From Chromobacterium haemolyticum DSM 19808 (lineage in GTDB: Bacteria; Pseudomonadota; Gammaproteobacteria; Burkholderiales; Chromobacteriaceae): a DNA stretch of 45,078 nucleotides. The translations under genes were made by a program, and so were the position numbers. Each line of letters begins with the position of its first letter. Position 1 is the first letter of the stretch. The stretch covers positions 1-45,078 of the forward strand of contig NZ_JONK01000037.1 in NCBI RefSeq assembly GCF_000711885.1, given 5' to 3'. Below the pieces are notes generated by a model. The model was not told the DNA's origin, did not search any database, and saw only the letters and a list, made by a program, of their open reading frames with translations. Positions 1-14,456 of this stretch are shown here, one piece after another.

Positions 1-247
1 GTAGGCGGTCCCAAATGCCTAGCGCTTGCCAATCGCGCAGTCTTCGCCAGCAGGTCATACCGCTGCCAAAACCGAGTTCCTGTGGGAGGTCCTCCCAAGG
101 AATGCCGGTAGTGAGAACAAACAAGATGCCGTTGAGGGCGGCAAAATCATCCAACCGCGGCCGCCCACCCCGGCGGGAACGCGGTGGTGGAGGAAGTAGT
201 GGTTGCAATGACTTCCAGAGCTTCTGACTGACGACTTTCCGTTTCAT
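1..247 (-). CDS. IS5-family transposase, N-terminal part (partial)
   Basis: The first 82 codons of a transposase reading off the left edge of the window; start codon ATG at 247-245. The N-terminus MKRKVVSQKLWKSLQPLLPP, followed by RRGGRPRLDD and then GILFVLTTGIPWEDLP, is the DUF4096-type N-terminal domain typical of IS5-family transposases, which binds the element ends; the later DDE catalytic domain would lie outside the window. No stop or frameshift is seen in the visible part. The family assignment rests on recognised motifs and on the adjacent IS end. Confidence 0.8.
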   Translation of the reverse strand, partial: MKRKVVSQKLWKSLQPLLPPPPRSRRGGRPRLDDFAALNGILFVLTTGIPWEDLPQELGFGSGMTCWRRLRDWQALGIWDRL

Positions 248-301
248 CTTCGCCAAATGCGGGCATACGCATCTGACATCAAGAGGTTTTGTTAGCGGGT
301 C
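1..301 (-). mobile_element. IS5-family insertion sequence, one end only (cut by window edge)
   Basis: The end of an insertion sequence whose transposase reads leftward out of the window. The probable outer terminus is at 301: the end sequence GGTTTTGTTAGCGGGTC (285-301) is followed by TAA, which fits the 3-bp TNA target duplication of the IS1031 group of IS5. The same 17-bp end recurs as the terminal inverted repeats of four short dispersed repeats further right in this window, which independently marks position 301 as an element boundary. The other end lies outside the window, so intactness cannot be judged. Confidence 0.75.
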
Positions 302-332
302 TAAATAGGGTATAGCTATGACAAAACAAAGG

Positions 333-364
333 CAAAAAAAATGCCCCTTCAAGGGGCATTTTTG
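333..364. terminator. Bidirectional intrinsic terminator
   Basis: ATGCCCCTT / AAGGGGCAT form a 9-bp stem around a two-base loop, flanked by an A-run on the left and a T-run on the right, so it could stop transcription in both directions. The gene it served is not visible; the IS5 element has inserted about 30 bp away. Confidence 0.75.
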
Positions 365-650
365 AGGTAAGAAAGCTCTTTATCCGCTAACTATGTATTC
401 CTTCTTGGGGGGAATAACTAATAAGTGGGCTTTTTTGTATTAATTCAACAGTGGTTTTAGGTGTGGCAATAGGGTTGGCGATCAATGGGCTGCCAAAGTG
501 TCGATACAGAAATGGGTTGTCAGAGTCGTAGAGATAGTCCGATAGATGCTTGATGGGTGTGTGTGCCTGGTAGGCATTTTTTATAGCACTTTCTAAAATT
601 TTCTATTGAGCCAGGCAGTGTGATTATTTATCATCGTCAGCGGTGCTTTT
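365..650. other. AT-rich intergenic stretch without a gene
   Basis: About 290 bases without a convincing reading frame. The only structure seen is a widely spaced 7-bp inverted repeat, TGCCTGG (564-570) and CCAGGCA (611-617), whose loop is too long for a clear terminator. Confidence 0.4.
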
Positions 651-678
651 TTGAGACCATGCCTTTTTTAAATATAAC
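651..678 (+). promoter_or_regulatory. Candidate sigma-70 promoter for the DcrB-like lipoprotein gene
   Basis: TTGAGA (651-656) and TATAAC (673-678) are separated by 16 bases and lie just ahead of the ATG at 697, implying a very short leader. This is a match to the general consensus only. Confidence 0.35.
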
Positions 679-696
679 TGTGAATAGGGTCAGTAA

Positions 697-1281
697 ATGA
701 GTTTGCGCTTTGTCTTGGCTTTAGTGGGCATGGTATCTGCTTTTACTCTTGCTGCTTGTAGTGGTGATGTAAGTAAAAACGATACCAAAAAAATAAATGC
801 TAGCAATGCTGGTGCTGAAAACAACCAAAAGGGGGTTGCTATTTTAAACGGCAAGGCAGAAGTAGCCATGCCTAAAAAATTTACAAAGATGCCCCAGTCC
901 ATTTTAGACGTTAAATATCCAGCAACGAGTAATAGACCTCAAGAAGCGTGGTTTGATGCTGAGGTGGACGGTAAAGTCTCGTTTGCTTTTAATTTGACAA
1001 ATACATCGGCCAAAGAAGAGCAGTTGCCCATGCTGGCAGAAGCATTGCAAAATCAAATGAGCGCATATTCTCCAGTTGTAAAAGATGTAGAAGTGAATGG
1101 CAAGAAAATGATGCGCCTAGAAATGACTACACCTGCGGGCGATGATGTTAATATTTTTAATGTCATGCAGATATCTAGTCTCGATGGAAAGCTACTAATA
1201 TCAACGTTTAATGTGACAGAAGATATGAAGAAAAAATATGCCGAGATGGGCAAGCAAGTTCTTTCAACTTTGGTATATTAA
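697..1281 (+). CDS. DcrB-like lipoprotein
   Basis: A 194-residue predicted lipoprotein. The N-terminus has a hydrophobic signal sequence ending in the lipobox LAAC (Cys at residue 21), so it should be lipidated and held in the cell envelope. The mature part follows the layout of E. coli DcrB: an 'LNGKAEVAMPKKFT' strand near residue 50 (DcrB 'LDGKLSFSLPADMT'), a helix 'LPMLAEALQNQMSAYSP', then 'VNGKKMMRLEM', and a C-terminal 'GKQVLSTLVY' resembling DcrB 'AENIINTLVIQ'. DcrB is an envelope protein needed for phage C1 adsorption in E. coli; whether that role applies here is unknown. The ribosome-binding site is weak (AGGG). Codon use is AT-rich, unlike the chromosome right of 14 kb, so it belongs to the accessory region. 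Confidence 0.65.
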   Translation: MSLRFVLALVGMVSAFTLAACSGDVSKNDTKKINASNAGAENNQKGVAILNGKAEVAMPKKFTKMPQSILDVKYPATSNRPQEAWFDAEVDGKVSFAFNLTNTSAKEEQLPMLAEALQNQMSAYSPVVKDVEVNGKKMMRLEMTTPAGDDVNIFNVMQISSLDGKLLISTFNVTEDMKKKYAEMGKQVLSTLVY

Positions 1282-1370
1282 TTTATGGGGTTTCTGTAAT
1301 CTTTGCTTCAAGGAGATTCGTGCGGTAATAAGTTATTGTAGTGAAAAGTAGTGCGTGATCTTTGTTTCTC

Positions 1371-1421
1371 CTCCACGGCTTTGCGCGCATATTCATATGC
1401 GCGCTTTTTTTAGCGTGGAGA
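1371..1421 (+). terminator. Strong intrinsic terminator
   Basis: The perfect 10-bp stem GCGCGCATAT / ATATGCGCGC (1383-1392, 1395-1404) with a two-base loop is followed by seven T's. An outer arm CTCCACG / CGTGGAG extends the hairpin. It probably ends the DcrB-like transcript. Confidence 0.8.
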
Positions 1422-1769
1422 GTGATCAGTTTAGGATTTGAAAGCGGTTTTATAGAATAAAACATGTGCCCATGCGTAATGAGGTGCGATAGTTGTATGT
1501 AAATTTTCTGGCATCTATTTTGACTCGGATACATTAAGTGGGCAAGGCTGCTCATACTTTAGTTATCAATAGTAATATTTCTGTTTGATCTTATTTTGAT
1601 AAGATGTTTAGGGGGCAATTTCTCTAAACGGTAACGCCGCGCTTTGTTACCTATTTGAAGGCTTCAATCTTGAATGCTTAGAGGGGCGCCAGTTGCTCAT
1701 GACTCCTCTTTCTCAAAGCTAGTGTGAGGCTTTCGTGGTATCTAGGAAAGCGAGGATGATTCAGGATGT
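1422..1769. other. Intergenic stretch without recognised gene
   Basis: About 350 AT-rich bases. I see no convincing ORF, RNA gene or repeat in it. Confidence 0.4.
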
Positions 1770-2075
1770 TTGAAAATATATGAAAAGGATTTTTTCGATA
1801 TGTGGTGTGCAATTATTTCTTTTTTTATAAGTTTTTTTTCTGTTGTTTATCCTATAACCACTCTTGGTCTTTATGCTAGCTTTGATGGTTCTCATTTTGG
1901 AGTGTCGCTGCTTTTTTCCATAATTGGCTTAATCATGGCAGCCATTTCAATAGTAAAAAATAAACCATTGGGTTGGGTGGCTAGAATAGGAGTAATCTAT
2001 GCATCCTCTGCCTATGCAATTGTTATTTCTGTGTTGGTCTTTAGATTTTTTATTGCTAGCATGGGTTATCTGTAA
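1770..2075 (+). CDS. Small hypothetical membrane protein
   Basis: A protein of 101 residues with three probable membrane helices (about residues 12-33, 43-61 and 70-93) and few charged residues. I do not recognise the family. The start is uncertain: the TTG at 1770 gives a natural charged N-terminus but its AGGA is only 3 bases away. The ATG at 1800 has AAGGA at a better distance (10 bases) and would give 91 residues. The gene is AT-rich like its neighbours. The IS3-family element inserted only a few bases after its stop codon. Confidence 0.5.
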   Translation: MKIYEKDFFDMWCAIISFFISFFSVVYPITTLGLYASFDGSHFGVSLLFSIIGLIMAAISIVKNKPLGWVARIGVIYASSAYAIVISVLVFRFFIASMGYL

Positions 2076-2125
2076 GCGAGCCTGATCTGCCCCCTCCAGC
2101 CATACCAGCGATAAGGAGAGAAGTC

Positions 2126-2965
2126 CTAGGTTTGCATGGTAGTGGTACTGCTTGATAGTTCGGTGGTCCGCTGCTGGCGATAGCGTGCCGCAAACACTGC
2201 TGGTGGTATGCGGCCAATCGAACCGTGTGGGCGAACCTGGTTGTAGTCGTCCCGCCAAGCCGCAATGATCTGCCGCGCTTCTGCCAACGAATCGAAGACA
2301 TGTTCATTCAGGCACTCATCGCGGAATCTGGCGTTGAAACTTTCAACGTAACCATTCTGCATCGGTCGACCCGGCTGAATCAGAATGTGCCGGATACCAT
2401 GCGTTCGCGCCCACCCCATAAACACACGACTGGTGAACTCTGGCCCATTATCCGTCCTGACTGCCAACGGATAGCCGCGAAATTGCGCTACCTGATCCAG
2501 CATGCGCGTGACGTATTGGCCAGACATCGAGAAATCTACCGCAACCTGCTCCGCCTCGTGGCTGAAGTCATCGGCTACCGTCAGGCATTTCAAGCGTCGG
2601 CCACAGGCTAACTGGTCGCTGACAAAATCCATGCTCCACACCTCGTTCAACTGCGTGGCCGCCTGCAGTGGCGTACGCACGCCAGTGAGCTTGCGCCGGC
2701 GGTTGTGTCGCCTGACGGCCAGGCCCTGCTCGCGGTACAAGCGGTAAACCCGTTTGTGATTGATGCCAGGGAATTCGTGACGCAGCAGATCATGCACCCG
2801 CCGGTAGCCAAAACGGCGGCGTGTCTGCGCGATGTTGACGATGCGAGCCGTCAGCTGATACGTCAGCGCATCCGCCTGTGGCGGATGCCGCCAGGCATCT
2901 CGGGAGAGTCCCACAAGCCGGCTGGCGCGGCGCTCTGAGAGCGTTAATCCACTGCTCAACATCAC
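2126..2965 (-). CDS. IS3-family transposase OrfB (DDE catalytic subunit)
   Basis: Catalytic part of the IS3-family transposase. After an HTH_21-like region (RRRFGYRRVHDLLR) comes the rve integrase core with the DDE residues in 'SMDFVSD', 'RTDNGPEF' and 'NGYVESFNARFRDECLN', and the family-typical 'RPHGSIGRIPPAVFA' near the end. In IS3 elements OrfB is made mainly as an OrfAB fusion by -1 frameshifting. Here the OrfB frame continues upstream without stop to the end of orfA ('PQAKRQAISVML' precedes the first start codon) and lies in the -1 phase relative to orfA. It is therefore most likely translated as part of a fusion that begins at 3264. Confidence 0.9.
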   Translation of the reverse strand: MMLSSGLTLSERRASRLVGLSRDAWRHPPQADALTYQLTARIVNIAQTRRRFGYRRVHDLLRHEFPGINHKRVYRLYREQGLAVRRHNRRRKLTGVRTPLQAATQLNEVWSMDFVSDQLACGRRLKCLTVADDFSHEAEQVAVDFSMSGQYVTRMLDQVAQFRGYPLAVRTDNGPEFTSRVFMGWARTHGIRHILIQPGRPMQNGYVESFNARFRDECLNEHVFDSLAEARQIIAAWRDDYNQVRPHGSIGRIPPAVFAARYRQQRTTELSSSTTTMQT

Positions 2966-2994
2966 GCTAATGGCCTGCCGCTTGGCCTGCGGGG

Positions 2995-3264
2995 CTAACG
3001 CTTTACCCCGAAGGCGACCTTGAGGGCTTCAATGTCGAGATGGGCCTCGGCCAGCAACTTCTTGAGACGGGCGTTCTTGGCCTCCAGATCTCGGGCGCGC
3101 TGAAGCTCGGAGACATTCATGCCGCCGTATTTACTGCGCCACTTAATATAGAAGGTGGCCTCGGAGAAACTGCCCTGCCGGCAGACCTCTTTGATGGCCA
3201 TGCCCAGTTCGGCCTGCTTGAGAAAGCCAATGATCTGTTCTTCGGTGAATCTGCTCTTCTTCAT
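2995..3264 (-). CDS. IS3-family transposase OrfA (HTH subunit)
   Basis: An 89-residue DNA-binding subunit: an HTH_Tnp_1 domain (KKSRFTEEQIIGFLKQAE, GMAIKEVCRQGSFSEATFYI) followed by a leucine-zipper-like helix (RDLEAKNARLKKLLAEAHLD). I chose the second ATG (3264) because the AGGAG sits 9 bases ahead of it and only one base from the first ATG at 3273. It ends AFGVKR-stop at 2995, at the zone where a -1 shift on GGT-AAA-G would join it to orfB. Confidence 0.85.
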   Translation of the reverse strand: MKKSRFTEEQIIGFLKQAELGMAIKEVCRQGSFSEATFYIKWRSKYGGMNVSELQRARDLEAKNARLKKLLAEAHLDIEALKVAFGVKR

Positions 3265-3550
3265 GTCCGTCATTCTCCTTCAGTGACGGACTTCTCTCTA
3301 CTTTTGATTGGTAAGGCCTAAGGGGAACAGATCAAGCCGCCTTCAGCTTGGCGTAACGGAATGATATGTGAAACATAACCTGTGTTTTTTCGAAAATAAT
3401 ATATGGAAATATTTTTCACAACTGACTATATTGTGCCCTTGGTTTCTTGGTGTGGTGAAGACTTTTTGATATGCACCATATTGGAAGGCATATTTTAGAT
3501 TGTTTTTGCCGATCAGAAGTGTATTGTTTGCGTAATAGATGGAGAGTGTC

Positions 3551-3961
3551 GTGACAAATAAAGTTGTTGTAAGTCAAAACCTAGGTCGTGATTTGAGCTC
3601 ATTCGGTTGGTTTGTTTTTGCACTAAAAAATTTTGCAAATTTTAACGGGCGAGCCAGGCGGAAAGAATTTTGGTATTATACGTTGTTTTCAGGTGTAGCA
3701 ATCATGTTGATTTCTTTGGTTTCACAGGCGATTGCATTGTCTGCCCTAGCTTCACAGGAAATTGGCGGTGTTATTACGCTTTTTATTTGCCTTCCTTTGT
3801 ATTTTGCCTCATTCAGTGCTTTTATTCGTAGACTTCACGATGTAGGCCGTAGTGGTTGGTGGGTGTGGGTGCCTATAGTCCCCTTTGTTTTTGCTTTTTT
3901 TGATTCGGAAGCAGGAACGAATCAGTATGGCCCAAGTCCGAAATATGATTTAGTTAAGTAA
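3551..3961 (+). CDS. DUF805 family membrane protein
   Basis: A 136-residue inner-membrane protein of the DUF805 family (E. coli YhaH-like). Family hallmarks are visible: 'NFNGRARRKEFWYY' near the N-terminus, then two to three membrane helices, 'RRLHDVGRSGWWVWVP', a last hydrophobic segment, and 'GTNQYGPSPK' near the C-terminus. The biochemical role of the family is not established. I chose GTG at 3551 because GGAGAG lies 4 bases ahead of it; an in-frame ATG at 3539 without a ribosome site is the alternative. AT-rich composition groups it with the accessory genes on the other side of the IS3 element. Confidence 0.8.
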   Translation: MTNKVVVSQNLGRDLSSFGWFVFALKNFANFNGRARRKEFWYYTLFSGVAIMLISLVSQAIALSALASQEIGGVITLFICLPLYFASFSAFIRRLHDVGRSGWWVWVPIVPFVFAFFDSEAGTNQYGPSPKYDLVK

Positions 3962-4065
3962 ACTCAACAATACGTTGTGGTGCCAAAAATGCTTGGCTGT
4001 TTTGTGATAAAGTTGCAAAATGAACAAAGCTGAATGGCACCACTTTAATTGTAGAAGTTCAGGCT

Positions 4066-4470
4066 TGATCTGACAGCCTCTCGGTTTGACGGCGGCCGAT
4101 TGTCAGATCAATTTAGCTTGTTGACCTTTTTCCTCGATTCCGATTTGCCTTCGATAAAGGTTTGCAACGGCGTACGGCCGCATCACATCTTTCCCTGGAG
4201 GGTTGGTTCTGTATTGTAGTGGTGAGTACCGCACTCGGTCAGGATGCGCAGTACGCCCATCTAATGCTCAGCAAGAAACGGCAGGACTCGGTCGTTGAGC
4301 AGATCCGTTCCGATACTCGGTGTCTTGGTGGTGTACTGCTTGGCACAGGCTACGTTGCTGTAGGAATCGACGAAGGTCTGCTGGTAGATTCGCCCGACGC
4401 CTTTGATCGTACCTAAGAATTGCTGGCGGAATTCATGCGAATACTCAGGTATGGCTGGAGGGGCAGATCA
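4066..4470 (-). pseudogene. Decayed IS481-type transposase remnant
   Basis: A 405-bp relic with IS-like ends (TGATCTGACAGCC at 4066; ...GGGGCAGATCA at 4470). Read on the minus strand it encodes fragments of an IS481-type transposase: 'GTIKGVGRIYQQTFVDSY', 'LLNDRVLPFLAEH', an in-frame stop, 'LRILTECGT', then a large internal deletion and the family C-terminus 'PLQTFIEG' ... 'KKVNKLN'. The DDE core is mostly gone, so it cannot encode an enzyme. Its right end (TGATCTGCCCCTCCAGCCATACC read inward) is almost identical to the left end of the IS3 element at 2083, suggesting that end comes from an IS3 copy. Confidence 0.7.
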
Positions 4471-4512
4471 GGTTTCTTGGAAACTGAGTTTACTTCATCG
4501 ATTGTGAGCCAA

Positions 4513-5001
4513 TTAGCATTGGTATGGTAAGTGAAGATGGCCAGCATGGGCTCGCCAAGCGGCAAGAAAAGCGCGTGCATCATGCAAAGCATGGTGCCAA
4601 GCTTGGCCTGGCACTGCATGGTAGGCGGAGACCGTGCGATGAAACGGAGCTTCCAACTGACTCAGATCCAGCCGTGACGTTAAGTTGGCAGGTAAGCTGC
4701 CATCAAGCGCATCAATAAGCAGTTCATAGTCGACCTGATGATCACAGGCGAGTGTGACCGCTTCAGATAGTTCTGCAAACCATTGCTTGATGACTTGGCG
4801 CAGCCGATCCCGGTCCAGGACTGGTACGCCGGGCCGAGCAAGCCGCGGCAGTACTGCTTCTCGGGTAAACGCGCTGCAGCGCTCTACACCAAAGTCGCTT
4901 CGCTCGATGTACAGCTCTCGGCCATCTTCTGTCACCAGCGCAATGCTGATTAGCTCGATATCAATGAAGTCAGTAAACTCGCAGTCGAGGAAAACCACCA
5001 T
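4513..5001 (-). CDS. DEDD-type 3'-5' exonuclease
   Basis: A 162-residue protein of the DEDDh exonuclease superfamily (RNase T/DnaQ fold). 'VVFLDCEFTDF' at the N-terminus supplies the first Asp-x-Glu pair, the Asp-rich segment 'LACDHQVDYELL' near residue 85 the next acidic residue, and 'HHALHDARAFLAAW' near residue 140 the His and last Asp. The enzyme would remove nucleotides from 3' ends of RNA or DNA. It resembles the small stand-alone 3'-5' exoribonucleases (PF16473-like). I chose the ATG at 5001, with AAAGGA upstream, because the frame further upstream (to 5241) overlaps the preceding gene and does not look like protein. It lies 217 bp downstream of an AbiEi-type gene on the same strand, where an AbiEii toxin would normally be. 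Confidence 0.7.
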   Translation of the reverse strand: MVVFLDCEFTDFIDIELISIALVTEDGRELYIERSDFGVERCSAFTREAVLPRLARPGVPVLDRDRLRQVIKQWFAELSEAVTLACDHQVDYELLIDALDGSLPANLTSRLDLSQLEAPFHRTVSAYHAVPGQAWHHALHDARAFLAAWRAHAGHLHLPYQC

Positions 5002-5218
5002 CTCATCGATTCCTTTACAAATTGCTCTTATATGAGGCGTGGGGACTCGCTGCTCACGCTGGTTATGATCTGTTATGAATTTAGCATTAAATGGCCGGTA
5101 AATCGCAAGCTGTAGGGTTGGCTCCTGCCTTAATAGAAGGAGGGCTTCCGCTACAGCCCGGACCTTCATCGGAATAACTAGGTCAGCTTTTTGATGGTGT
5201 GATCTACTCGAGCAATTT

Positions 5219-5902
5219 CTACAAGCCTCGCGCCCAGTCATACCCTGACTCGCGGCGCAGTTTGCAAACCATCCTGACCACGGTCACTTTTGTGCAGTGC
5301 TCGAGCATCTCGTCAAGAATGGTCCTCCTTAGGTTGCGCATCGTCAGCATCAGGTTTCGAACCTCTTCTAGTGATTGCCCCCGTCCCAGTTGGCTGACCA
5401 ACTCAACAAGGGCCCGCTCAGGAAGTGACACCATTACATCGGGGTGTCGACCAGGTACAGGCTTTAGCCATTTTCCATAGGGCACCCCATCGTCGAATAG
5501 CCGGGTAGTTTGGTAGTCATAGAGCGTGACATTTCGTATCCAGGCAGGAAACGGGTAATGGGCCTGCCCCCACAGGACGAGCCGCTCCCTGAACATGACG
5601 TTATGGCGAACTCCTTGCCAATCAAGCGCCGTTTTGCCCCCCACATGAAGGCCGGAGATACGCCGGCTCAGATACGCGATGGTACCCTCTGGGGAGGGGG
5701 CATCGCCGGTCAATAGATAGGCACCCACCGACAGCCGATATAGCCACCCCAGCTTAACCAGCTGTAAAGCCAGCGGGACGCTTACCCCTAGATCTCGTAG
5801 TAAACGGGAATCCATGGGCTGACTTCTGGGGGCCTCACGCATCAGCCGTTGCACCACCATAGCAATCTGCGCCGGTTCGAGCAGGGCTAATGGCTTGGAC
5901 AC
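5219..5902 (-). CDS. AbiEi-type antitoxin / transcriptional regulator (orphan)
   Basis: A 227-residue protein resembling AbiEi antitoxins of type IV toxin-antitoxin systems. It has an N-terminal winged-helix domain (about residues 20-70: 'PMDSRLLRDLGVSVPLALQL', 'LGWLYRLSVGAYLLTG') and a C-terminal AbiEi_3-like domain containing 'LHVGGKTALDWQGV' and 'LPERALVELVSQLG'. In known systems AbiEi represses the operon and neutralises AbiEii, a nucleotidyltransferase encoded immediately downstream. No AbiEii sequence follows here; a DEDD exonuclease does. The start is GTG at 5902 with GGAAAG ahead. It could be a decayed toxin-antitoxin locus or a regulator with a new partner. Confidence 0.7.
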   Translation of the reverse strand: MSKPLALLEPAQIAMVVQRLMREAPRSQPMDSRLLRDLGVSVPLALQLVKLGWLYRLSVGAYLLTGDAPSPEGTIAYLSRRISGLHVGGKTALDWQGVRHNVMFRERLVLWGQAHYPFPAWIRNVTLYDYQTTRLFDDGVPYGKWLKPVPGRHPDVMVSLPERALVELVSQLGRGQSLEEVRNLMLTMRNLRRTILDEMLEHCTKVTVVRMVCKLRRESGYDWARGL

Positions 5903-6006
5903 GGGCTTCTTTCCGAAGGGCCTCGATATTTACTGGCTGCTTGCGAAACCCGTTTGCCAATCCGTTTGTCGGGCTCACTGGCAATATATCTAAGCGGTAA
6001 TATCAT

Positions 6007-6186
6007 TTATTCATAGCCGGTCCCCTGCGAGTAGTAGATCCCATGTGAAAGCCGCTGCAGCCTGCCGGCTTTTACCATGTAGGTCGCCTGCGCAGGGTAG
6101 ACACCGAAGTCACGTAACATGCCGATATCGATTGGCAGCCCATGTGGAGCTGTTTGCATCAAGTGCTGTGCGGTCCTGTTTGCCAT
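6007..6186 (-). pseudogene. Truncated AbiEi-like N-terminal domain (59 residues)
   Basis: A short frame from ATG 6186 to TAA 6007. Its residues 18-57 ('LPIDIGMLRDFGVYPAQATY', 'KAGRLQRLSHGIYYSQGTG') align with the winged-helix part of the AbiEi-like protein at 5219-5902 ('PMDSRLLRDLGVSVPLALQL', 'LGWLYRLSVGAYLLTG'). Everything after this domain is missing. I read it as the stump of a second AbiEi-type gene, although a stand-alone small DNA-binding protein cannot be excluded. Confidence 0.55.
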
Positions 6187-6272
6187 GCTTTCGTGATGTT
6201 ATTTACTTGCTGTTGCTTGAAAGATTTTTCTAACTATTGGGATTTTTTAACGCAACGTTGACCTGAACGTAA

Positions 6273-7226
6273 TTAATAGTAGATGTACTTTCGTTCCCAA
6301 ATCATGGCACCAAAGGAACCGTCTTTATGCACATCGTACTCCTGCACCAGAACTTTACGCGTGTTGTTGCCGCGGCGGTCCGTTAGAAAAGTGTAAACCT
6401 GACGCAAATTGACTTGGCCTTGCTTATCGACCTCATGCTCGGAGCGGATTTTACCTTGTGGGGTGTACTCCTTGATCGAGGATGGTGTCGCCGCCCAACG
6501 CTGCCATTGGCCGTCGATAAACACCTCAGTGAAAGTACTCTGTTGCCAGTTGCCATCGGACAGTGGAGCACGTAGCCAAGACGAGCGAATTTGCAGGCGC
6601 CGATTCAATGTATGCAGCCCTGTTATGGTCTCGACTTGCAAAGGGCCGCCACCAGGCCCAGGTGTCATTTCCCACTGGCGAGACTCCAACTGGCAGTCTC
6701 GTCCATACATCGCTATTTCTCGTTCTCCCACCTTATAACGACGACTCGGATCATAGACAGCGGTAGTAATCGAGGTTTTCTGCCACTTTCCATCGCCGAG
6801 TTGGGACACTGTTACGGCTTCAGAGTCCAGCCGATCACCGCCATTGATGGTGTAATGGTAGTCGTCCTGATAGGTCACGGGCTGGTTTAGATAGGTCGTT
6901 AGACGTCCTTGTGTGTTGTAGCCAAACTGGTCTGGTTGACCACCCTCCCGGCTCCTACGAATCAGCCGGCCGTGAGCGTCAAAGTCGTACTTGTCCTGCC
7001 AAATCTTTTTTTTCTTCCTCAGTAAGCCGACATTTGGCTTGAATCCTGTTTCGTACAGCGTTTCAACCATATGCTTCACACCTTGCGGCTGTTTTCCTTC
7101 GTTTTCATATGCTAGTTCAACCCAGTCAGGTGTCGGCAACATGCACCATGGAAGTTCAGCCGCTTGAGCTAGGGCAGGCAAAGCAGCACACATCATAGCT
7201 CGGAAAGTATTGGCAATCAGACTCAT
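6273..7226 (-). CDS. Exported hypothetical protein with YD/RHS-like repeats
   Basis: A 317-residue protein with a signal peptide (MSLIANTFRAMMCAALPALA, cleavage likely after AQA), so probably periplasmic or secreted. The body contains degenerate YD-type repeats of the RHS kind, such as 'YDFDAHGRLIRRS' and 'GYNTQGRLTTYLN', and beta-rich sequence throughout. There is no recognisable toxin domain or enzyme motif. The ATG at 7226 was chosen for the AGGA 8 bases upstream and because it begins a proper signal peptide. It follows a cysteine-rich protein gene on the same strand by 85 bp, and the two probably form one operon. Function unknown. Confidence 0.55.
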   Translation of the reverse strand: MSLIANTFRAMMCAALPALAQAAELPWCMLPTPDWVELAYENEGKQPQGVKHMVETLYETGFKPNVGLLRKKKKIWQDKYDFDAHGRLIRRSREGGQPDQFGYNTQGRLTTYLNQPVTYQDDYHYTINGGDRLDSEAVTVSQLGDGKWQKTSITTAVYDPSRRYKVGEREIAMYGRDCQLESRQWEMTPGPGGGPLQVETITGLHTLNRRLQIRSSWLRAPLSDGNWQQSTFTEVFIDGQWQRWAATPSSIKEYTPQGKIRSEHEVDKQGQVNLRQVYTFLTDRRGNNTRKVLVQEYDVHKDGSFGAMIWERKYIYY

Positions 7227-7311
7227 GAGAAATTCCTGAATCAACAATGAAGGAGAAAGGGAGGAACTGCCGATTCTTGATCAGTAGCGCTACTGCACAA
7301 GCACATGGGGA

Positions 7312-7794
7312 TCAAGGCTGACAGAGGCAATCATGGGGCGGTTCATAGACAACGGGAACATCCAGTACCGGCTCACAAGTCCATTCGGTAAACCACTCGG
7401 CAGGGGCTTCCGGTCTGGGTTGCCAAGGCTGGCAAGGCTGAGCAACCCCGTCAACTCCGAAGTGGCAGAACCAAGTCACTCCGTTGACACGGTAACTTCT
7501 GATGGAGTGGATCAGTTCAAGTCGACTAACCTCGTCGCCTCCACCTGACATATGCAGCCGATACACCCGGTAGGTTCCGTTACACAATTGGCGGACTATC
7601 TCGAACAAATGTTCGGGCGACGGCACCAAGAAGCTATTCAGCAAATCCCGTTCATCTCGCTGATCGTGGCGACACTCGACCAAGAAACAGGGCGACTCAG
7701 AGGAAACCCCAACGCAGCGCCAGGGTAGGTAGGGTTGAACCAACCGTCGCCGCGTGGGCTGTTCCTCTGCCCAACTGGGCGTGGTTAACAACAT
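7312..7794 (-). CDS. Cysteine-rich hypothetical protein
   Basis: A 160-residue protein with many cysteines, including 'WRCVG', 'PCFLVEC', 'LCNG', 'WFCHF', 'PCQPW', 'TCEP' and a C-terminal 'DCLCQP'. I do not recognise the family. The ATG at 7794 has a good ribosome site (AAAGGA). A GTG at 7824 would add ten residues and create a signal-like segment (RGQSKELLMLLTTPSWA), which would fit an exported disulfide-bonded protein. It lies 85 bp upstream of the exported YD-repeat-like gene and probably is co-transcribed with it. Confidence 0.45.
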   Translation of the reverse strand: MLLTTPSWAEEQPTRRRLVQPYLPWRCVGVSSESPCFLVECRHDQRDERDLLNSFLVPSPEHLFEIVRQLCNGTYRVYRLHMSGGGDEVSRLELIHSIRSYRVNGVTWFCHFGVDGVAQPCQPWQPRPEAPAEWFTEWTCEPVLDVPVVYEPPHDCLCQP

Positions 7795-7824
7795 CAGTAA
7801 TTCCTTTGATTGGCCGCGCAACAC

Positions 7825-7949
7825 ACTCTCGTTGTGCGTCTCACAAAAAATAGAACACTATAGGTGGCAATGCCACATTGTGAGATGTTAACAGAATGCG
7901 CCGATAAGACCACCATTCTTGTGGTTAACAGACATCAGGCGTCGTTTCA
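7825..7949. promoter_or_regulatory. Divergent promoter region with operator-like repeats
   Basis: The intergenic region between the leftward cysteine-rich gene and the rightward XRE regulator holds several symmetric sequences. These are an inverted pair TCTCACAA / TTGTGAGA about 40 bp apart, the palindrome TGGCAATGCCA, a direct repeat GTTAACAGA at 7887-7895 and 7924-7932, and ACCAC-N7-GTGGT. They are plausible binding sites for the XRE protein, but this is inference. Confidence 0.35.
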
Positions 7950-8306
7950 GTGACTGGACAGAATGAGAGGGAATTTGCCAGAAGTCTTGGGCGATCAATT
8001 GCAGATGCAAGGCGTGCAAAAGGGCTGACGCAAGAGAAGTTGGCAGACGTTATCGGTGTGGAGCAGGAGAGCATCAGTCGGCTAGAGCGAGGGGTAACGT
8101 TACCTTCCTTATCGCGGTTAATGCACATCGCGGATGTCTTAGCGGTACCTATTGCCAGCTTGATCCGCTCCAGTTCTGGAAGGTCTGTCGATCAGGCCCA
8201 AGACTTAGTGGAAAAATTGAATGAACTCAGCGGGGAGGATCGGGCTTGGGTGCGCCGCTGGGTCGACGAAATATGTAGCAAGTTGGCTTTACAAAATAAG
8301 AAGTAG
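7950..8306 (+). CDS. XRE-family transcriptional regulator
   Basis: A 118-residue protein with an N-terminal lambda-repressor-like helix-turn-helix (about residues 13-70: 'LGRSIADARRAKGLTQEKLA', 'GVEQESISRLERG', 'LPSLSRLMHIADVLAVP') and a short C-terminal helical tail. It likely represses its own promoter and perhaps the divergent cysteine-rich/YD-repeat gene pair. The start is GTG at 7950; its ribosome site is weak. Confidence 0.8.
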   Translation: MTGQNEREFARSLGRSIADARRAKGLTQEKLADVIGVEQESISRLERGVTLPSLSRLMHIADVLAVPIASLIRSSSGRSVDQAQDLVEKLNELSGEDRAWVRRWVDEICSKLALQNKK

Positions 8307-8499
8307 CCGTCGTATGAGAATACCGGTTGCTTGGCCTTGGCAAGACTGGGGCAGCAACGACTTACAAAGCAGTCAGCCACCGACCATTGCGTGCCCGCCT
8401 GCACAACGAAGTCGTCAACTGTAGGGTAGGATTGCCTACAGTAGCCGGGGCGATTTGGTGGGTAGGGCAATGCTGCTTGTCGTCACTACTGTCAGGAGG

Positions 8500-8512
8500 A
8501 TACTCTGTGTAA
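8500..8512 (+). repeat. Left 13-bp terminal inverted repeat of the candidate SE
   Basis: ATACTCTGTGTAA, 13 bases left of the srap stop codon, is the exact reverse complement of 13933-13945. Both copies point inward to the four-gene operon. Confidence 0.6.
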
Positions 8513-8525
8513 ATTGGAATCAGCC

Positions 8526-9017
8526 TCAGGAGTTTTTACCTTTCCTCTGCTTATGCTGGCTGTTTTTCAAAAGCGGGTCTGTCTGTTGGCGGGATGGGGG
8601 AGTGAGGGGGTGCTCCAATTGCTCTTGAGTAACACCATAACGAATAGCATTGCCTAAATAACACAATAGCAGCTCATCGTATTCATGCAACCTGGCTTGC
8701 AGTTCTTCATTTTCATTCTTCAATTGCTCCAACTTCTGCTCAAGCACAATGTGCTCTGGTAGGCGCTGTGGAGGTTTTTTTCCGGTTTTGAGTTGAGAAC
8801 GACAGGCCGCAATCTTATTTTCATACGCCTGCTTGATCTGTGGATGTGACTGAAGAGTTTGTCGGCTCCATTGGTGATGTAACTCCTGCGCGACAAGGCT
8901 AACTATTTTTTCCCATGTCGGCGGAGTTGGGTTTGCCCACTCTTTAATCAGGGTGGCAATGTGCAATATTTGTCGTTCGGTCAAGTGTCGTCGCTGAGCA
9001 GACTTTCGAAGCGGCAT
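8526..9017 (-). CDS. srap: Small recombination auxiliary protein (Srap-like)
   Basis: A 163-residue basic protein, last gene of the recombinase operon, starting 2 bases after the intB stop codon. The N-terminal half looks like a helix-turn-helix (LTERQILHIATLIKEW ... WSRQTLQSHPQIKQAYENKI). It is followed by a coiled coil (HIVLEQKLEQLKNENEELQA) and a polar, lysine-rich tail. The layout is like TnpC of Tn554-type elements and Srap of SEs, accessory factors for recombination that have no catalytic motif of their own. Assignment is by position and architecture. Confidence 0.65.
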   Translation of the reverse strand: MPLRKSAQRRHLTERQILHIATLIKEWANPTPPTWEKIVSLVAQELHHQWSRQTLQSHPQIKQAYENKIAACRSQLKTGKKPPQRLPEHIVLEQKLEQLKNENEELQARLHEYDELLLCYLGNAIRYGVTQEQLEHPLTPPSRQQTDPLLKNSQHKQRKGKNS

Positions 9018-9019
9018 GT

Positions 9020-11047
9020 TTATTCCGTTTCTACTGAAATAGAAGGTTTTGGATCGCCTAAATGAATTAGCGTGCCGTCCGGTATATTTTGATCGTTATG
9101 CAAGTTAATGATGGTATCCAGTCGGCTAAGTGCAATTTTTTGGTGCTCAAGCCAATTATTTACTCCGTAGGCCTGTACTTCCTCTGCAGACTCCGCCAGA
9201 TTTAGCAGTACTTCTGTATCCTGTTTCAGGGCAAGGGCACGAATCTTCTGATCTTCATTTCCTTTGTCAACTAAGTGTTCATCACATGTCATGCAAGACC
9301 GATGCTTCGGGCAGGGGAGGGCTGACCAATCGTGTAGGCAAATCCCTAGATCGGTTACGTGTGCTGTAGTTGTCAATGAGCTGATAAATTCGTCACGTCT
9401 TACCGGGTCTTTAATGCGAATGATGGTGTCCTGCATTAATCCTTTTATTTCAATATTTTGTAGTTTATTATGAATGCTTGCTGCGAGTTGTACCCCGGTC
9501 ATGTGATTGTAGGCTGAATTTTGCCTGATATCCTTTCGGCCCATCCAGCGTGCGATTTCTAGCTGAGAGAGCCCCCCTTCGTTAGCCAAGGTATTCAGCC
9601 AGTGGCGAAACTGATGTGAGGTGACCATGAGTGGTTCACCATTTTTTTCGTAATAGCCTAATCTGTCAAAAATCGATAAGCCCATATTGCGACCCACGAT
9701 ATAGTCACTGATCTGTCCATCGGTTAGCAGTGTTGCCGTACCATTCAATGTTCCTCTTTGTGACCCCAGGAAATTAATGCCTACCACAAATAGACACTCA
9801 GACAGACCATAGTGCCCTTGTCCTTGCGGGAAAATATCTTGTTGCCCGGACTGCAAAGCGAGATAAAATTCTAAGTCGCTTTTAGCGATAGCTTGGATTA
9901 AGCGCTCTTTTCCTTGCTTTTTAACTAATGGTAGATTAGTTGTTTTGACGAACAGTCTGGCTGATGTATGATTTGCGAGGCCGACGATTTGTGCAACTTC
10001 ATCCATACTGAATAGAGAGCCGGGCGGCGTCGAATGCCATGGTTCAGGTAGCAAAGTTCTATTCGGATTGCTCGCGATAAACTGAGCGATGGCCCAAAAT
10101 GGTTCGGTAATGCGTTGAATGTCATTAATTGCCCGCTTGGCCACATCCACCATGACGGTTGGCAGCCATTTGGTTTGCGTCTCGGTGTGCCCCCCTTTTT
10201 CTGGGATGTAACGTATTCCACATCGCACTGCGAGTTTTCCGTTCTGGTCAAGCAGCGGGACGTTATTCGTATCCTTCAGTTGTTCTTCCCGCCAACATTC
10301 ACGGGGTATGGTCAACAATTCGTTGATGCGAAATCCTCCACAGACAAGCAGATCGATTGCTCGTTGACGCAACAGATCACGATCTTCCAAATCCTTTCTA
10401 TTGGAGATGTCCGCCAGGGCATTCATTACTTCTTCAGATGGTAGTTTGCGGTTGCGGTGTTCGTTAAATTCCTTGCCCACTCGAGCCCCGATGGCGCCAC
10501 TAGCGTCGCTATTGCGTGGCACCGGATTTTTCCAATCAATCCGTATAGGAACCAGGCGATGCTTGTCTAGTAGCTTGGCTATTTCCGAAAGTTTGATGCC
10601 AATGCGATAAGCTGAGGAGTGCTGCTCCGACTGCAAGCAACGGTTGATGGCGTTATCAAAGTCCGCAGGAACCAATGCCGTCGGTGTATTTCCTCTATCC
10701 CTTAGTGCCTCGAGCAGGTAGCGCTGGGCACGTATTGCGACCATATGATCCAATGTCGCCAATCCTTTTTTCGCATGGCTCTCCCGGTAGCAAATAAAAG
10801 ATTTCACGAATGAAGAAAAAGGCTCTGGAAATGGTTCCGCGTTTTTTGCTGTAGTTTTTGTGGCGAAATTGGCATTGAACCAAATTCGTTCAATCTTGCG
10901 ACCACTACTGGCTCGTGATTTTTTTGGCACTTCCCAGTACATGGCATCCCAATGGATTGGGCCAAAAGGAATATTGGAGCGGGAAGTGTCGATAAACTTT
11001 ACCAAGTTGAGCTCGGCCGCCTTATGCGCTGCTGTTTGAAATTTCAT
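9020..11047 (-). CDS. intB: Tyrosine recombinase IntB
   Basis: A 675-residue tyrosine recombinase, much longer than phage integrases (about 350-400), as is usual for IntB/TnpB-type enzymes. Catalytic features are visible: Arg in 'CGGFRINELLTIP', His-x-x-Arg in 'TSHQFRHWLNTLANEGG', and the nucleophile Tyr in 'QNSAYNHMTG'. A cysteine/histidine cluster ('CLHDWSALPCPKHRSCMTCD') towards the C-terminus looks like a zinc-binding element. It should cut and rejoin the element ends together with IntA. The ATG at 11047 overlaps the tfp stop codon (ATGA), so the two are probably translationally coupled. Confidence 0.85.
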   Translation of the reverse strand: MKFQTAAHKAAELNLVKFIDTSRSNIPFGPIHWDAMYWEVPKKSRASSGRKIERIWFNANFATKTTAKNAEPFPEPFSSFVKSFICYRESHAKKGLATLDHMVAIRAQRYLLEALRDRGNTPTALVPADFDNAINRCLQSEQHSSAYRIGIKLSEIAKLLDKHRLVPIRIDWKNPVPRNSDASGAIGARVGKEFNEHRNRKLPSEEVMNALADISNRKDLEDRDLLRQRAIDLLVCGGFRINELLTIPRECWREEQLKDTNNVPLLDQNGKLAVRCGIRYIPEKGGHTETQTKWLPTVMVDVAKRAINDIQRITEPFWAIAQFIASNPNRTLLPEPWHSTPPGSLFSMDEVAQIVGLANHTSARLFVKTTNLPLVKKQGKERLIQAIAKSDLEFYLALQSGQQDIFPQGQGHYGLSECLFVVGINFLGSQRGTLNGTATLLTDGQISDYIVGRNMGLSIFDRLGYYEKNGEPLMVTSHQFRHWLNTLANEGGLSQLEIARWMGRKDIRQNSAYNHMTGVQLAASIHNKLQNIEIKGLMQDTIIRIKDPVRRDEFISSLTTTAHVTDLGICLHDWSALPCPKHRSCMTCDEHLVDKGNEDQKIRALALKQDTEVLLNLAESAEEVQAYGVNNWLEHQKIALSRLDTIINLHNDQNIPDGTLIHLGDPKPSISVETE

Positions 11048-12639
11048 CGATCATCCTCCATGTTGCGGGACATTTGGCATTGCAGAACTACCTGAGCGAC
11101 AGCGCGAATGGTGGTGTCATGCATTTGAGTCATTTTTGGATCTGCACCACGTGAAAGATGCGCATCTCGATCAGCAATAAGCCAATCCAGTACTGCTTCA
11201 TGTGGTGCATCGTGCCAAGCTTGAAATTTAAAGCACGTATAGCAAGCGATGGGTGCCGATAAGCCGCAAAATCCAAAACTGCCACAGGTGCCGATGTTTT
11301 TCAATTGATGATCATTGTGGTCCAAGAATTTGATACGACTGGCGGGGTCATTGCCGCGGGGTGCTTCGCTTTCCGAGGGGATCAGCATGCCCATGAATGC
11401 CTGCGCCACAGGGGCTAATCGTAGCGCCAAGGCCTTGTCGAGGCGCACGACAACATCCGAACGTGTATTGAAATACACCATGACGTGCTGGAGGTCGGTG
11501 TGATCCAGTGCCTCGGCCAGCTCCATAGGGGAGGCCCCTTCCTGTACCAGTCGGGTTGCGAAGGTATAGCGCAAGCGGCGAGGGGTCAGGTGGAGTGGTC
11601 CTCCAGCTGCCGATTTGAGATCAAGAGTGGTTACGATAAGGTAGAGTGCATTATTGAACCATTGGTTATCTCTGCGATATGCATCGGATTCGAAGTCAGT
11701 GTCCAGAAGAGCCTCTTTAGGGACTTCACGTCGGAATAGCGACTGGGCAAAGCGAATTGGATTGTGCTCTAGCAAAGCCAATCGTCTAGCGCGGGTATTT
11801 TGCTCGATCAATTGCTCCAGTAACTGACCGATTTCCGGTACTAGCGAGCGGGTTTTGAAACCACTGCGCTCATTGACGTGGCCTTTCTTGATTCGTGGCA
11901 GGCGGAGCTCATAAATAAAGCTACCGTCAGCCTGCTTGGTTGTGAGCAAGTCCTCCTCGTTCAGGAGGATGAGATTTTTGGGATTTGTACCAAAAGCAAT
12001 AAACAGCCATGCTGCCGCAAGCAGCTCAATACTCAGTGTGGCGGTTTCACCAGCACGGTGCAGGTGTGCTATCAGGGCTTCTATTTCAACCTGACGCAGG
12101 GGGCCCTCATCGGGATCGTCGCGTAATACTGCCGCACCTTTCAGGTTGCCACCAATGGTGCGGTTCTCCAGTTCCGCTGCGACTTCTTCGTCGAATCCTT
12201 CGCATTGGGCATCGGTGCACCACAGATACCAACGACGGTATGCGTCTAGGTAATTAGAAACTGTTCCTAAAGAAACGGTTTCTCTCAAGTGCTTGTGCAG
12301 CACTTCAAATAATATAATGTCGTATTTCGTGGGGTCATTAATATTGGTGGCTGTATTACTTGCGGCAATGAAACATGCCTTTAGCCAATTGAATTGTCCA
12401 AAAACATAGCGTGGGTTGCTTCGGCGAATGAAATTTCGGAAGTACGCCTCAGTGGATATTAATATGGGGCCTTGCTGTAACGGCATTAGATCCCAGTTCA
12501 ACACTTCCATCGCACTCAACCGCCATTGTGTACCCGAGGTATCGATGCTTGCACCTGAAAGGGCAATGACCGCCGTCTGGTCATCGGCTTCCGATGAGGT
12601 ATCGGTGGAATTGAATGTAGATTGCATAGAGTGATTCAT
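11044..12639 (-). CDS. tfp: Tyrosine-recombinase-fold protein (Tfp-like), catalytically degenerate
   Basis: A 531-residue protein with the tyrosine recombinase fold. The box II region 'LTPRRLRYTFATRLVQEGAS' and the terminal 'LDHTDLQHVMVYFN' align with integrases and keep one Arg and the Tyr. However, the first His of His-x-x-Arg is replaced by Arg, and the box I Arg appears missing ('AFGTNPKNLILL'). It ends with a Cys cluster ('GTCGSFGFCGL', 'ACYTCFKF') that may bind zinc. It is therefore probably a structural partner of IntA and IntB rather than an active recombinase, as described for Tfp of SEs. The ATG at 12639 overlaps the intA stop codon (ATGA). Confidence 0.75.
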   Translation of the reverse strand: MNHSMQSTFNSTDTSSEADDQTAVIALSGASIDTSGTQWRLSAMEVLNWDLMPLQQGPILISTEAYFRNFIRRSNPRYVFGQFNWLKACFIAASNTATNINDPTKYDIILFEVLHKHLRETVSLGTVSNYLDAYRRWYLWCTDAQCEGFDEEVAAELENRTIGGNLKGAAVLRDDPDEGPLRQVEIEALIAHLHRAGETATLSIELLAAAWLFIAFGTNPKNLILLNEEDLLTTKQADGSFIYELRLPRIKKGHVNERSGFKTRSLVPEIGQLLEQLIEQNTRARRLALLEHNPIRFAQSLFRREVPKEALLDTDFESDAYRRDNQWFNNALYLIVTTLDLKSAAGGPLHLTPRRLRYTFATRLVQEGASPMELAEALDHTDLQHVMVYFNTRSDVVVRLDKALALRLAPVAQAFMGMLIPSESEAPRGNDPASRIKFLDHNDHQLKNIGTCGSFGFCGLSAPIACYTCFKFQAWHDAPHEAVLDWLIADRDAHLSRGADPKMTQMHDTTIRAVAQVVLQCQMSRNMEDDR

Positions 12640-13819
12640 TTCTTCCAACCCTTCTGCTGCATTCGCAATAGTTTCTTGTTGGCGGCATTCCGTATGGCGC
12701 GTCTGGCATAGCGGAGTGGCATCGTTGAAGCTGGGCTCCAGCCCATCGCATATTTTTGATCGCGCAGACTTATTTCTGGATCACCGCCTTCTTCCTCATT
12801 CAATTCGACCCAGCGATCGTTCCAGTCATGACGCAAAAGGTGATGGCACAGACCGGCCAGGATCGGATAATGGCGACGTAGCTTCTCAACGACTTTACGG
12901 AAACCGCGGCTGCCTAGCGGTTCGCCACGATTATTGACAAAGAGGTATGGATGCTTGGCTGCCGCAGGAAACTGCTGCCGATTTGCCCGGTGGCGCGTGA
13001 TCCATTCATCAAGCAAATCACGCAGCTTGGTATCAAGGAGTAGCAGGCGTCCGAAAGTCTTGGTTGCAGGTGCGGGGGTGCGGGGCTCTTCCGGATCATC
13101 GTGGCGGCGATGAATGGTGAGCGATGCTGGCTCGACACTGAAGTCCACATCCCTTGTCTTGAGTCCGAGCACTTCGCCGCCGCGTGGGCCAAGCTCAAAC
13201 TCGAGTTGCAACATCACGTAATTACGGAATTGGAGCTGCGGCTTGAAAGGGTTGTCACAACAGCCAGGCTCGATGACCCGTAAGAACAGTGCACGTTGCT
13301 CTGGCGTGAAGCCTAGGCGCTCTCCAGGGACGACTGAAGCATCTCGCCGTCGACGGTGCGTGCGCGCTGGAGAAAGCTCTGCAGGGCTCCCAATGCGGCA
13401 TCCCGGCGTGAGTCGTCAACGATCCGCGAAATGATGGGTTCGGGTACCCAGCGAATGTAATCGGTAGCCACCCGAAATCGTAGCGCTGCATAGCCAGGGC
13501 CGACTACGCGTAGTGTCCCAATCTTCTGCGTCCGGCGACAGTAATCGGATAGTGCTACCAACTCCTCCTGGCTTAGGAACTGACGTTTGGCTGCCCGTTC
13601 GTCGAGCTGGATACCATGCTTAGCAAAGAAAGTGTAAGCAAGGGCTAAGGCGGAGAGCCGTTGGCGGATGCTGCTGGCTTTCAGGCCCTTTGGCCGGAAC
13701 TGGGTCAGGACAAAACGGGTTGCGATGGGAACCGGTAGTCCGAGGGGGCTACCGGACACGAGCAGGGGGATGTGTTCACCGGACTGCATCCGCACTTCTC
13801 GAATGAAAAACGTGGTCAC
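12636..13819 (-). pseudogene. intA: Tyrosine recombinase IntA, frameshifted
   Basis: Two abutting reading frames together encode one recombinase of about 393 residues. The N-terminal SAM-like core-binding part (GTG at 13819, preceded by AGGAG) ends at a stop at 13313. The catalytic part continues one phase away with 'LGFTPEQRALFLRVIEPG'. It has Arg in 'GPRGGEVLGLK', His-x-x-Arg in 'HHLLRHDW' and Tyr in 'LRYARRA', and ends at 12636. The break sits in GGAGAGCGCC (about 13315-13324). Removing one GA dinucleotide restores an uninterrupted frame and makes the length (1,182) divisible by three. The simplest reading is a 2-bp duplication that inactivates the gene; a programmed shift or an assembly error remain possible. 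Confidence 0.8.
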
Positions 13820-13932
13820 CGCACTTCTCCTGACTCATCAGATGACAGGACTTTACGACAGCAGCACGGTTCCGGTGATGTGAATTATGGGCGTAAAGAA
13901 AAAGACCGGAAAAACCAAGTGCAATCTATTGA

Positions 13933-13945
13933 TTACACAGAGTAT
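13933..13945 (-). repeat. Right 13-bp terminal inverted repeat of the candidate SE
   Basis: TTACACAGAGTAT is the exact reverse complement of 8500-8512. It lies 114 bp upstream of the intA start and 37 bp from the ssb stop codon. A 9-bp direct repeat GGTTCCGGT (13868-13876 and 13975-13983) flanks it, the outer copy touching the ssb stop codon. Confidence 0.6.
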
Positions 13946-13982
13946 TTCCAGTCTAATTTAACAATCTAACATGTGGTTCCGG

Positions 13983-14456
13983 TTAGAACGGAATGTCGTC
14001 GTCCATATCGTCAAGCTGTTTGGGCGCCGGGCGCGGCTCTTGGCGACGGGGCGCGGCCGGGGCCTCCTGGCGCGGGGCCGGGGCGTTGTAGCCGTAGCCG
14101 TCGTCCATGCCGCCTCCGCTCATGCCGCCGCCGGAGCCGCCCATCTCATTGCGGCCGCCTTGCAGGCTCAGCTCGTTGACGCGCACGTCCGGGGACAGGC
14201 GCTTGTTGCCCTCCTTGTCCTGCCATTCGCGCAGGGTCAGTTGGCCGTAAACGGTAACCTGCTGGCCTTTGGCCAGGTAATTCTTCAGCGATTCACCGCG
14301 CTTGCCCCATACCTGGCAGCTGAACCAGTTGGTGCTCTTGCGCTCGCCAAAGCCGATGTCGCTGGCTACGCGGAACGACAGTACCGGCTCACCGCTGGGG
14401 GTGTAGCGCAGTTCGGCGTCGGCGGCCAGACGGCCGTCAAAGGTGATGCTGTTCAT
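13983..14456 (-). CDS. ssb: Single-stranded DNA-binding protein
   Basis: A 157-residue SSB. The N-terminal OB-fold (residues 1-105: 'MNSITFDGRLAADAELRYTP', 'NWFSCQVWGK', 'QQVTVYGQLTLREWQDKEG') is followed by a glycine/proline/glutamine-rich linker and the conserved acidic tip DDDIPF that recruits repair and replication proteins. It coats single-stranded DNA in replication, recombination and repair. First chromosomal gene to the right of the mobile region; it keeps an intact C-terminus, so integration next to it did not damage it. It lies 46 bp downstream of the yajR-like gene on the same strand, with uvrA divergent beyond that. Confidence 0.95.
   Translation of the reverse strand: MNSITFDGRLAADAELRYTPSGEPVLSFRVASDIGFGERKSTNWFSCQVWGKRGESLKNYLAKGQQVTVYGQLTLREWQDKEGNKRLSPDVRVNELSLQGGRNEMGGSGGGMSGGGMDDGYGYNAPAPRQEAPAAPRRQEPRPAPKQLDDMDDDIPF

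Follow-up and report, generated by a model that had tools for sequence, protein, structure and literature searches.

The question raised by positions 8500 to 13945 of the 45,078-nucleotide stretch of Chromobacterium haemolyticum DSM 19808 analysed here (the window, which is the entire contig C34, one of 63 in a draft genome of 5.03 Mb) is where the mobile element to which they belong begins and ends. Four minus-strand genes downstream of ssb, which span 8526-13819, have frames ending at 12636, 11044, 9020 and 8526 and are joined by ATGA-type overlaps and one 2-bp gap, lie here between two exact inverted copies of the 13-mer ATACTCTGTGTAA (8500-8512 on the plus strand and 13933-13945 on the minus strand). 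An initial annotation, correct in these coordinates and in the repeat, had offered two readings: a cargo-free strand-biased circularizing integrative element (SE) of 5.4 kb bounded by the repeats, or a larger island that extends further to the left and has the repeats in its interior. The second reading fits best. We conclude that the locus is probably the left part of an island inserted at the 3′ end of ssb and of the GInt type (Genomic Island with three Integrases), with its right end beyond the contig or lost, and that this copy has probably lost the ability to move unaided.

The features that carry the argument are, in the direction in which ssb is read:
13983..14456, minus strand: ssb, the insertion target (open reading frame; start point, within ssb, of the five homologous islands compared with empty sites)
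about 13983-13991, minus strand: putative left attachment core, ssb stop region CCGTTCTAA (homologous islands and a non-ssb copy in genome G016 that reaches 13991)
13892..13985, minus strand: putative left end with a terminator-like hairpin downstream of ssb (comparison with relatives)
13933..13945, minus strand: right copy of the 13-mer, overlapping the hairpin stem 13938-13919
12636..13819, minus strand: ginA-like tyrosine recombinase gene with a broken frame (N-terminal part 13819-13313; catalytic part about 13415-12636, in a different frame)
11044..12648, minus strand: ginB-like protein, 534 amino acids (NF041502, 349.6 bits; alignments)
9020..11047, minus strand: ginC-like long recombinase, 675 amino acids (R240, H478, R481 and Y513 kept)
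8526..9017, minus strand: ginD-like small protein, 163 amino acids (homologous to the fourth gene of other loci)
8500..8512, plus strand: left copy of the 13-mer, between ginD and a cargo block, with no attachment core nearby

Homologous islands start at the ssb stop codon

Comparison with empty sites gave five homologous islands that start at the ssb stop codon, three in Escherichia coli and one each in G019 and G077 (G and L numbers denote our genomes and loci). In E. coli AR_0162, the match to the K-12 locus runs to position 2660 and resumes from 2654, with 11,895 bp between, and these limits therefore place the crossover in or beside CCGTTCT at the ssb end. The two further E. coli islands measure 19,533 and 13,778 bp, and the empty sites of G028 and G022 delimit an 18.6-kb island in G019 and one of approximately 25.6 kb in G077, respectively. 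G061, in which an insertion at ssb was seen in comparison with G032, was not counted because G032 has additional DNA of its own. The right ends of all five islands (L105, L140, L141, G019 and G077) share the sequence GGTWNNNNNAACC(G/C/T)TT(C/T)TGA, a possible recombinase binding site. The left ends of these five speak against a repeat-bounded element in the window. Among the relatives searched (399 genomes, with 3340-8600 as the query, of which 8326-8600 matched this genome alone), none was found in which the sequences beside 8499 and 13946 are joined.

From the homologous islands, we infer that the left end in the window lies at approximately 13986, at the ssb stop codon and about 40 bp outside the repeat. 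The left end common to the window, G016, G014 and G020 includes the hairpin downstream of ssb, and G016 has a second copy of it at a non-ssb site, where homology to the window extends up to 13991. Because a related hairpin also occurs downstream of ssb in G002, G004 and G018, in which no gin gene was found, the left end may alternatively lie just inside the hairpin. Whichever of the two applies, 13945 is not an end. The ssb reading frame is intact in the window, its product is unaltered by the insertion, and the GC content, 0.64-0.67 in the host part, is 0.39-0.58 between the contig end and 13985, the low-GC DNA running left of 8500 as far as the contig end.

Left ends standing alone, with ginA truncated at varying points, were seen at ssb sites and at one non-ssb site (L062 3445-3883 in G016, L039, L040 and L091), and look like recurrent decay of such islands.

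Distribution of the operon

Homologues of the four genes occur in the same order at other loci. Counting this genome, homologues of the second gene were found in eight of 61 genomes of the family, in seven of which the operon starts downstream of ssb; in the eighth, G063, it lies approximately 20 kb past ssb. The first-gene frame of the ssb-linked operons opens about 115-915 bp past the ssb stop codon, except in G007, in which a first-gene match was not found and the second-gene frame opens about 590 bp past the stop. No gin match was found downstream of ssb in G018, G013 and G004.

Outside the family, 378 of 5,426 complete E. coli genomes (7.0%) have a gene related to the second one (82% of the query aligned, 32.8% identity), and in all four E. 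coli chromosomes inspected the operon is located downstream of ssb, between ssb and yjcB; it also follows ssb in Variovorax. The same target is thus used in genomes of the family and in E. coli. A scan of genome contigs with the third protein gave one relative, that in Variovorax, and order-wide searches of 399 genomes matched the third protein in two and the NCBIfam family NF041502, to which the second protein is related, in five, this genome being among the matches. A plasmid search with ginA DNA gave no match, and none of the papers in the collection searched has both Chromobacterium and GInt as whole words.

The E. coli ssb-yjcB islands (L105, L140, L141 and L142) carry a like operon and differing defence cargo, namely Avs4 with AbiGi, DRT3 with Hachiman, or a dGTPase-containing set. 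Passages of PMC10121019 describe GInts with defence systems at E. coli hotspots, of which ssb-yjcB may be one. The operon is also located downstream of plasmid-borne ssb in a Pseudomonas aeruginosa plasmid and in an E. coli IncN plasmid (L047, L048), the latter of which carries Avs4.

The four proteins and the broken first gene

The gene roles given in the initial annotation (recombinase, degenerate recombinase-fold protein, long recombinase and small protein) are about right. The first gene was rightly called a tyrosine recombinase gene, its catalytic part matching Pfam Phage_integrase with 38.7 bits; that it is not one intact frame but is split between two had been missed. In G020, the first gene runs in a single frame across the break point (74% DNA identity over 863 columns) and is itself cut off further along; at this point the window has a net deficit of 13 nt relative to G020, and the break may be real or an assembly error. 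Because the frame is broken, this copy is probably immobile on its own.

The second protein matches NF041502 over its full length with 349.6 bits, just below the cut-off of 350, and its counterparts in E. coli, G019 and the P. aeruginosa plasmid score 678, 609 and 245 bits, respectively. It keeps the Tyr and Arg II and has Asn at Arg I, where most relatives have Arg, and His II is missing in 12 of 12 alignment rows. The third protein has the R, H, R and Y of a complete recombinase, all four residues being invariant in 10 of 10 aligned sequences. Both proteins are approximately 30-41% identical to the relatives found. Structure models were of low confidence (mean pLDDT 62 and 56); that of the third protein resembles Cre, Tn1549 Int and XerH, and its top matches in the PDB are recombinases, none of them at E ≤0.001 (best E 0.0023). 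For approximately 9890-10060 within the third gene, the model search also lists MerR/Xis-like DNA-binding domains (BldC, RacA and phage Xis, E ≥0.8), and Pfam gave no match there.

The 13-bp inverted repeat is not an element terminus

A high frequency of the 13-mer outside such elements had been named in advance as evidence against a repeat-bounded element, and the 13-mer is not frequent: the genome contains only these two exact copies of ATACTCTGTGTAA plus one place with a single mismatch. With up to two mismatches allowed, the window is expected to contain 0.26 matches, and two of 100 dinucleotide shuffles reached two. When the 166 nt preceding the first gene were set against the 300 nt that follow the fourth, none of 100 mononucleotide shuffles reached thirteen inverted bases, nor did any of 60 for slightly different stretches; all of these stretches were picked post hoc. 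Exact 13-base inverted pairs no more than 6 kb apart number seven in the first 16 kb, compared with a mean of 1.4 in 50 shuffles, and the ATACTCTGTGTAA pair is the only one between 5,000 and 16,000. The copies do lie just outside the operon, as annotated, except that the right copy overlaps the stem of the terminator-like hairpin downstream of ssb.

The same test on 10 relative loci, of which L048 and L105 carry the operon, gave longest inverted pairs of 6-9 bases, none of them unusual. At the island ends themselves, a 10-base inverted pair was found in E. coli L105 (equalled in 4/60 and 6/60 shuffles in two tests) and a 15-base pair with one mismatch in G019 (0/60). The idea that ssb islands generally end in inverted repeats was rejected, E. 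coli L140 and L141 having none above chance (60/60 and 57/60 shuffles as good, respectively). The repeat is real but is not an element terminus; it may have arisen by chance or may be what remains of a binding site.

Relationship to GInts and SEs

The locus resembles the ssb-end type of GInt (also called the Tn6571 family) in its left-end four-gene operon, in its insertion at the 3′ end of ssb and in varied cargo, and the homologous E. coli ssb-yjcB operon has Avs4, or DRT3 with Hachiman, as cargo. It differs in its broken first gene and in that its right end was not found. Of the cargo and short AT-rich right end expected of a GInt, the window shows low-GC DNA, which includes a block in common with the ssb-linked island of G063, and no right end. 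The link to GInts is drawn through the E. coli ssb-yjcB islands, NF041502 and the E. coli frequency: according to passages of PMC10214605, 7.5% of Escherichia replicons have GInts and 0.3% have SEs, and our 7.0% is near the former and far from the latter. Parts of PMC5385486 place six of the eleven GInts selected for analysis within an ssb gene homologue.

With SEs, the locus shares the gene order by catalytic state, which is intA-tfp-intB-srap-like. SEs are further characterised by circularisation that is biased to one strand and leaves no empty site. One SE was compared, on pAQU1, recognised by its gene order beside blaGMA-1, with proteins of 545, 614, 671 and 161 amino acids. BLASTP of the window proteins against these four gave no significant match (best E 0.17), NF041502 matched none of the four, and among the matches listed the plasmid records of the SE Tfp (40 of 50 records) and those of the second protein (of 109) have none in common. 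Furthermore, SEs have inverted repeats (motifs C and C′) at their ends, whereas here the left end would be the ssb stop codon, about 40 bp outside the repeat, with ssb as the target, and there is no right end at 8500. Several adjacent tyrosine recombinases are also found in RIT elements and Tn554. By the descriptions in passages of PMC10214605, RIT proteins have 315-410 amino acids and the elements 34-bp terminal repeats, and Tn554, which likewise has a third protein that is small and a footprint of 6 bp, is without a Tfp counterpart.

Some results weigh against a GInt-type island at ssb. A degenerate second and a complete third protein form the SE pattern and differ from the published descriptions of GinC, the third GInt protein, which is presented as lacking the first Arg in passages of PMC5385486 and as lacking the catalytic Tyr in those of PMC10214605; here, R240 is invariant, the third protein keeps R, H, R and Y, and the second is the one without Arg I and His II. 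In a profile comparison, the first-gene family matched SE IntA with E 0.003 and a probability of 10%, which may reflect merely the shared recombinase domain. No ssb match was found beside the relative on a Bosea plasmid, and searches of the window and genome detected no right end, attR or direct repeat. GInts were compared through their published descriptions, so that membership in the GInts is inferred. The catalytic pattern suggests that published statements about which of the gin proteins is catalytically incomplete are worth checking for this branch.

Alternative explanations

We consider it very unlikely that the operon is a cargo-free, SE-like element of approximately 5.4 kb that is ended by the 13-bp repeats and inserted in older island DNA. 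Such an element would account for an exact pair just outside the operon that no shuffle reached and for the SE-like order of catalytic and degenerate proteins, and passages of PMC10214605 describe SEs with 13-19 bp terminal inverted repeats, the smallest known being cargo-free at 6,353 bp. A conserved cargo block also stops abruptly at 8307-8325, and there is therefore some junction between this block and ginD. However, the pAQU1 SE proteins gave no significant BLASTP match, the homologous islands start at the ssb stop codon, the second-site left-end copy in G016 starts at 13991 and not at 13945, no attachment core lies near 8326-8500, the operon-bearing relatives are without such a pair, and in two of the three E. 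coli islands whose ends are known, no inverted pair at the ends exceeds chance. The low-GC DNA left of 8500, whose part 6018-8325 also lies in the ssb-linked island of G063, does not fit this element either. We give similarly little credence to a self-contained, cargo-free, repeat-bounded element within an older ssb island that would be intermediate between SEs (by catalytic order) and GInts (by sequence and target).

An SE with cargo, taking the place of a GInt in the same island, is unlikely. The catalytic pattern of the second and third proteins is that of SEs, and the best BLASTP matches pair in SE order (first with IntA, second with Tfp and third with IntB), but their E-values of 0.17-0.45 are not significant, the matches listed share no plasmid record, the E. 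coli frequency fits GInts, and the protein lengths differ mainly in the first two. Possible, if rather doubtful, is a composite of several GInts or their remains in tandem downstream of ssb, cut by insertion sequences, with the operon and the left cargo derived from different elements. In G016, the left end with its truncated ginA is present both at ssb and at another site, all that G014 and G020 retain is a left end with a ginA fragment, and in G063 the shared block lies between ssb and the operon in reversed order; the abrupt end of this block and the insertion sequence ends at the edges of contigs C34 and C5 point the same way. On the other hand, no second left end or core was found in 1-8526 of the window, and ordinary cargo accounts for the same DNA in fewer steps.

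Proposed organisation of the island

For the preferred GInt-type island, site-specific recombination would insert the element at the 3′ end of ssb with its left end at the stop codon, as in the homologous islands, and the hairpin at this end may act as the ssb terminator. The layout would be hairpin, ginABCD-type operon and cargo, with the right end past the contig or lost. By analogy with tested GInts (PMC5385486) and tested SEs, the four proteins may jointly act on TTCT(A/G)A, the core found at the ssb stop codon, to circularise the island and to integrate it, and the broken first gene would leave this copy stuck. GInts are described as passing through a circular intermediate and as needing all four genes. 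An island of this kind is ordinary, and it is new only as another member of the ssb-end GInt-type islands; the choice between the two initial readings is settled in favour of internal repeats in a GInt-type island at a known target, and left and right ends are now given for five homologous ssb-end islands through their empty sites.

Cargo and contig setting

The remaining features, from ginD to the contig end, are:
6018..8325, strand not assigned: cargo block (84-87% DNA identity in G036 and G063)
7950-8306, plus strand: XRE-type regulator in the cargo block
7312-7824, minus strand: cargo-block gene
6273-7247, minus strand: cargo-block gene
304..6017, strand not assigned: further low-GC DNA (AbiEi-like and exoribonuclease-like genes 4513-5902, IS3-type transposase genes about 2126-3290, small genes)
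1..303, strand not assigned: insertion sequence end at the contig edge (an identical end opens contig C5)

The block 6018-8325 recurs in G036 and G063, two of the 398 other genomes, and 10 others have short matches elsewhere in the query (3340-8600) only; in G063, it is located 4-8 kb past ssb. Region 304-6017 is probably cargo and insertions.

A right end near 8420 was ruled out, no core being present in the 200 bp between the shared block and ginD (8326-8500). The right-end pattern gave one match in the genome versus six for a reversed-pattern control and was not used. A direct repeat of the ssb end was matched at six places in the window with up to three mismatches compared with three expected, the best candidate (230-243) being on the opposite strand and inside the insertion sequence. 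If the island reading is true, the right end should have the form GGTWNNNNNAACCNTTYTGA and be followed by host DNA and a nonribosomal peptide synthetase (NRPS)-like gene. Such a gene, called by its sequence and not by a domain search, is located 966 bp past the ssb stop codon in G018 and at the start of contig C5 in this genome.

The same insertion sequence end starts both C34 (window 1-303) and C5 (L081 1-357), and because these ends are identical and in the same orientation, the two contigs are not joinable through one copy of the insertion sequence.

Within 4513-5902, the AbiEi-like antitoxin gene (164 bits, PADLOC) overlaps an RNase AS-like exoribonuclease gene (44 bits, below the cut-off), which occupies the place where an AbiEii toxin gene is expected. 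The AbiEi-like/exoribonuclease-like set recurs in G036 and G063 together with an RHS-repeat gene, the gene at 7312-7824 and the XRE gene, and the exoribonuclease gene is elsewhere in these two genomes.

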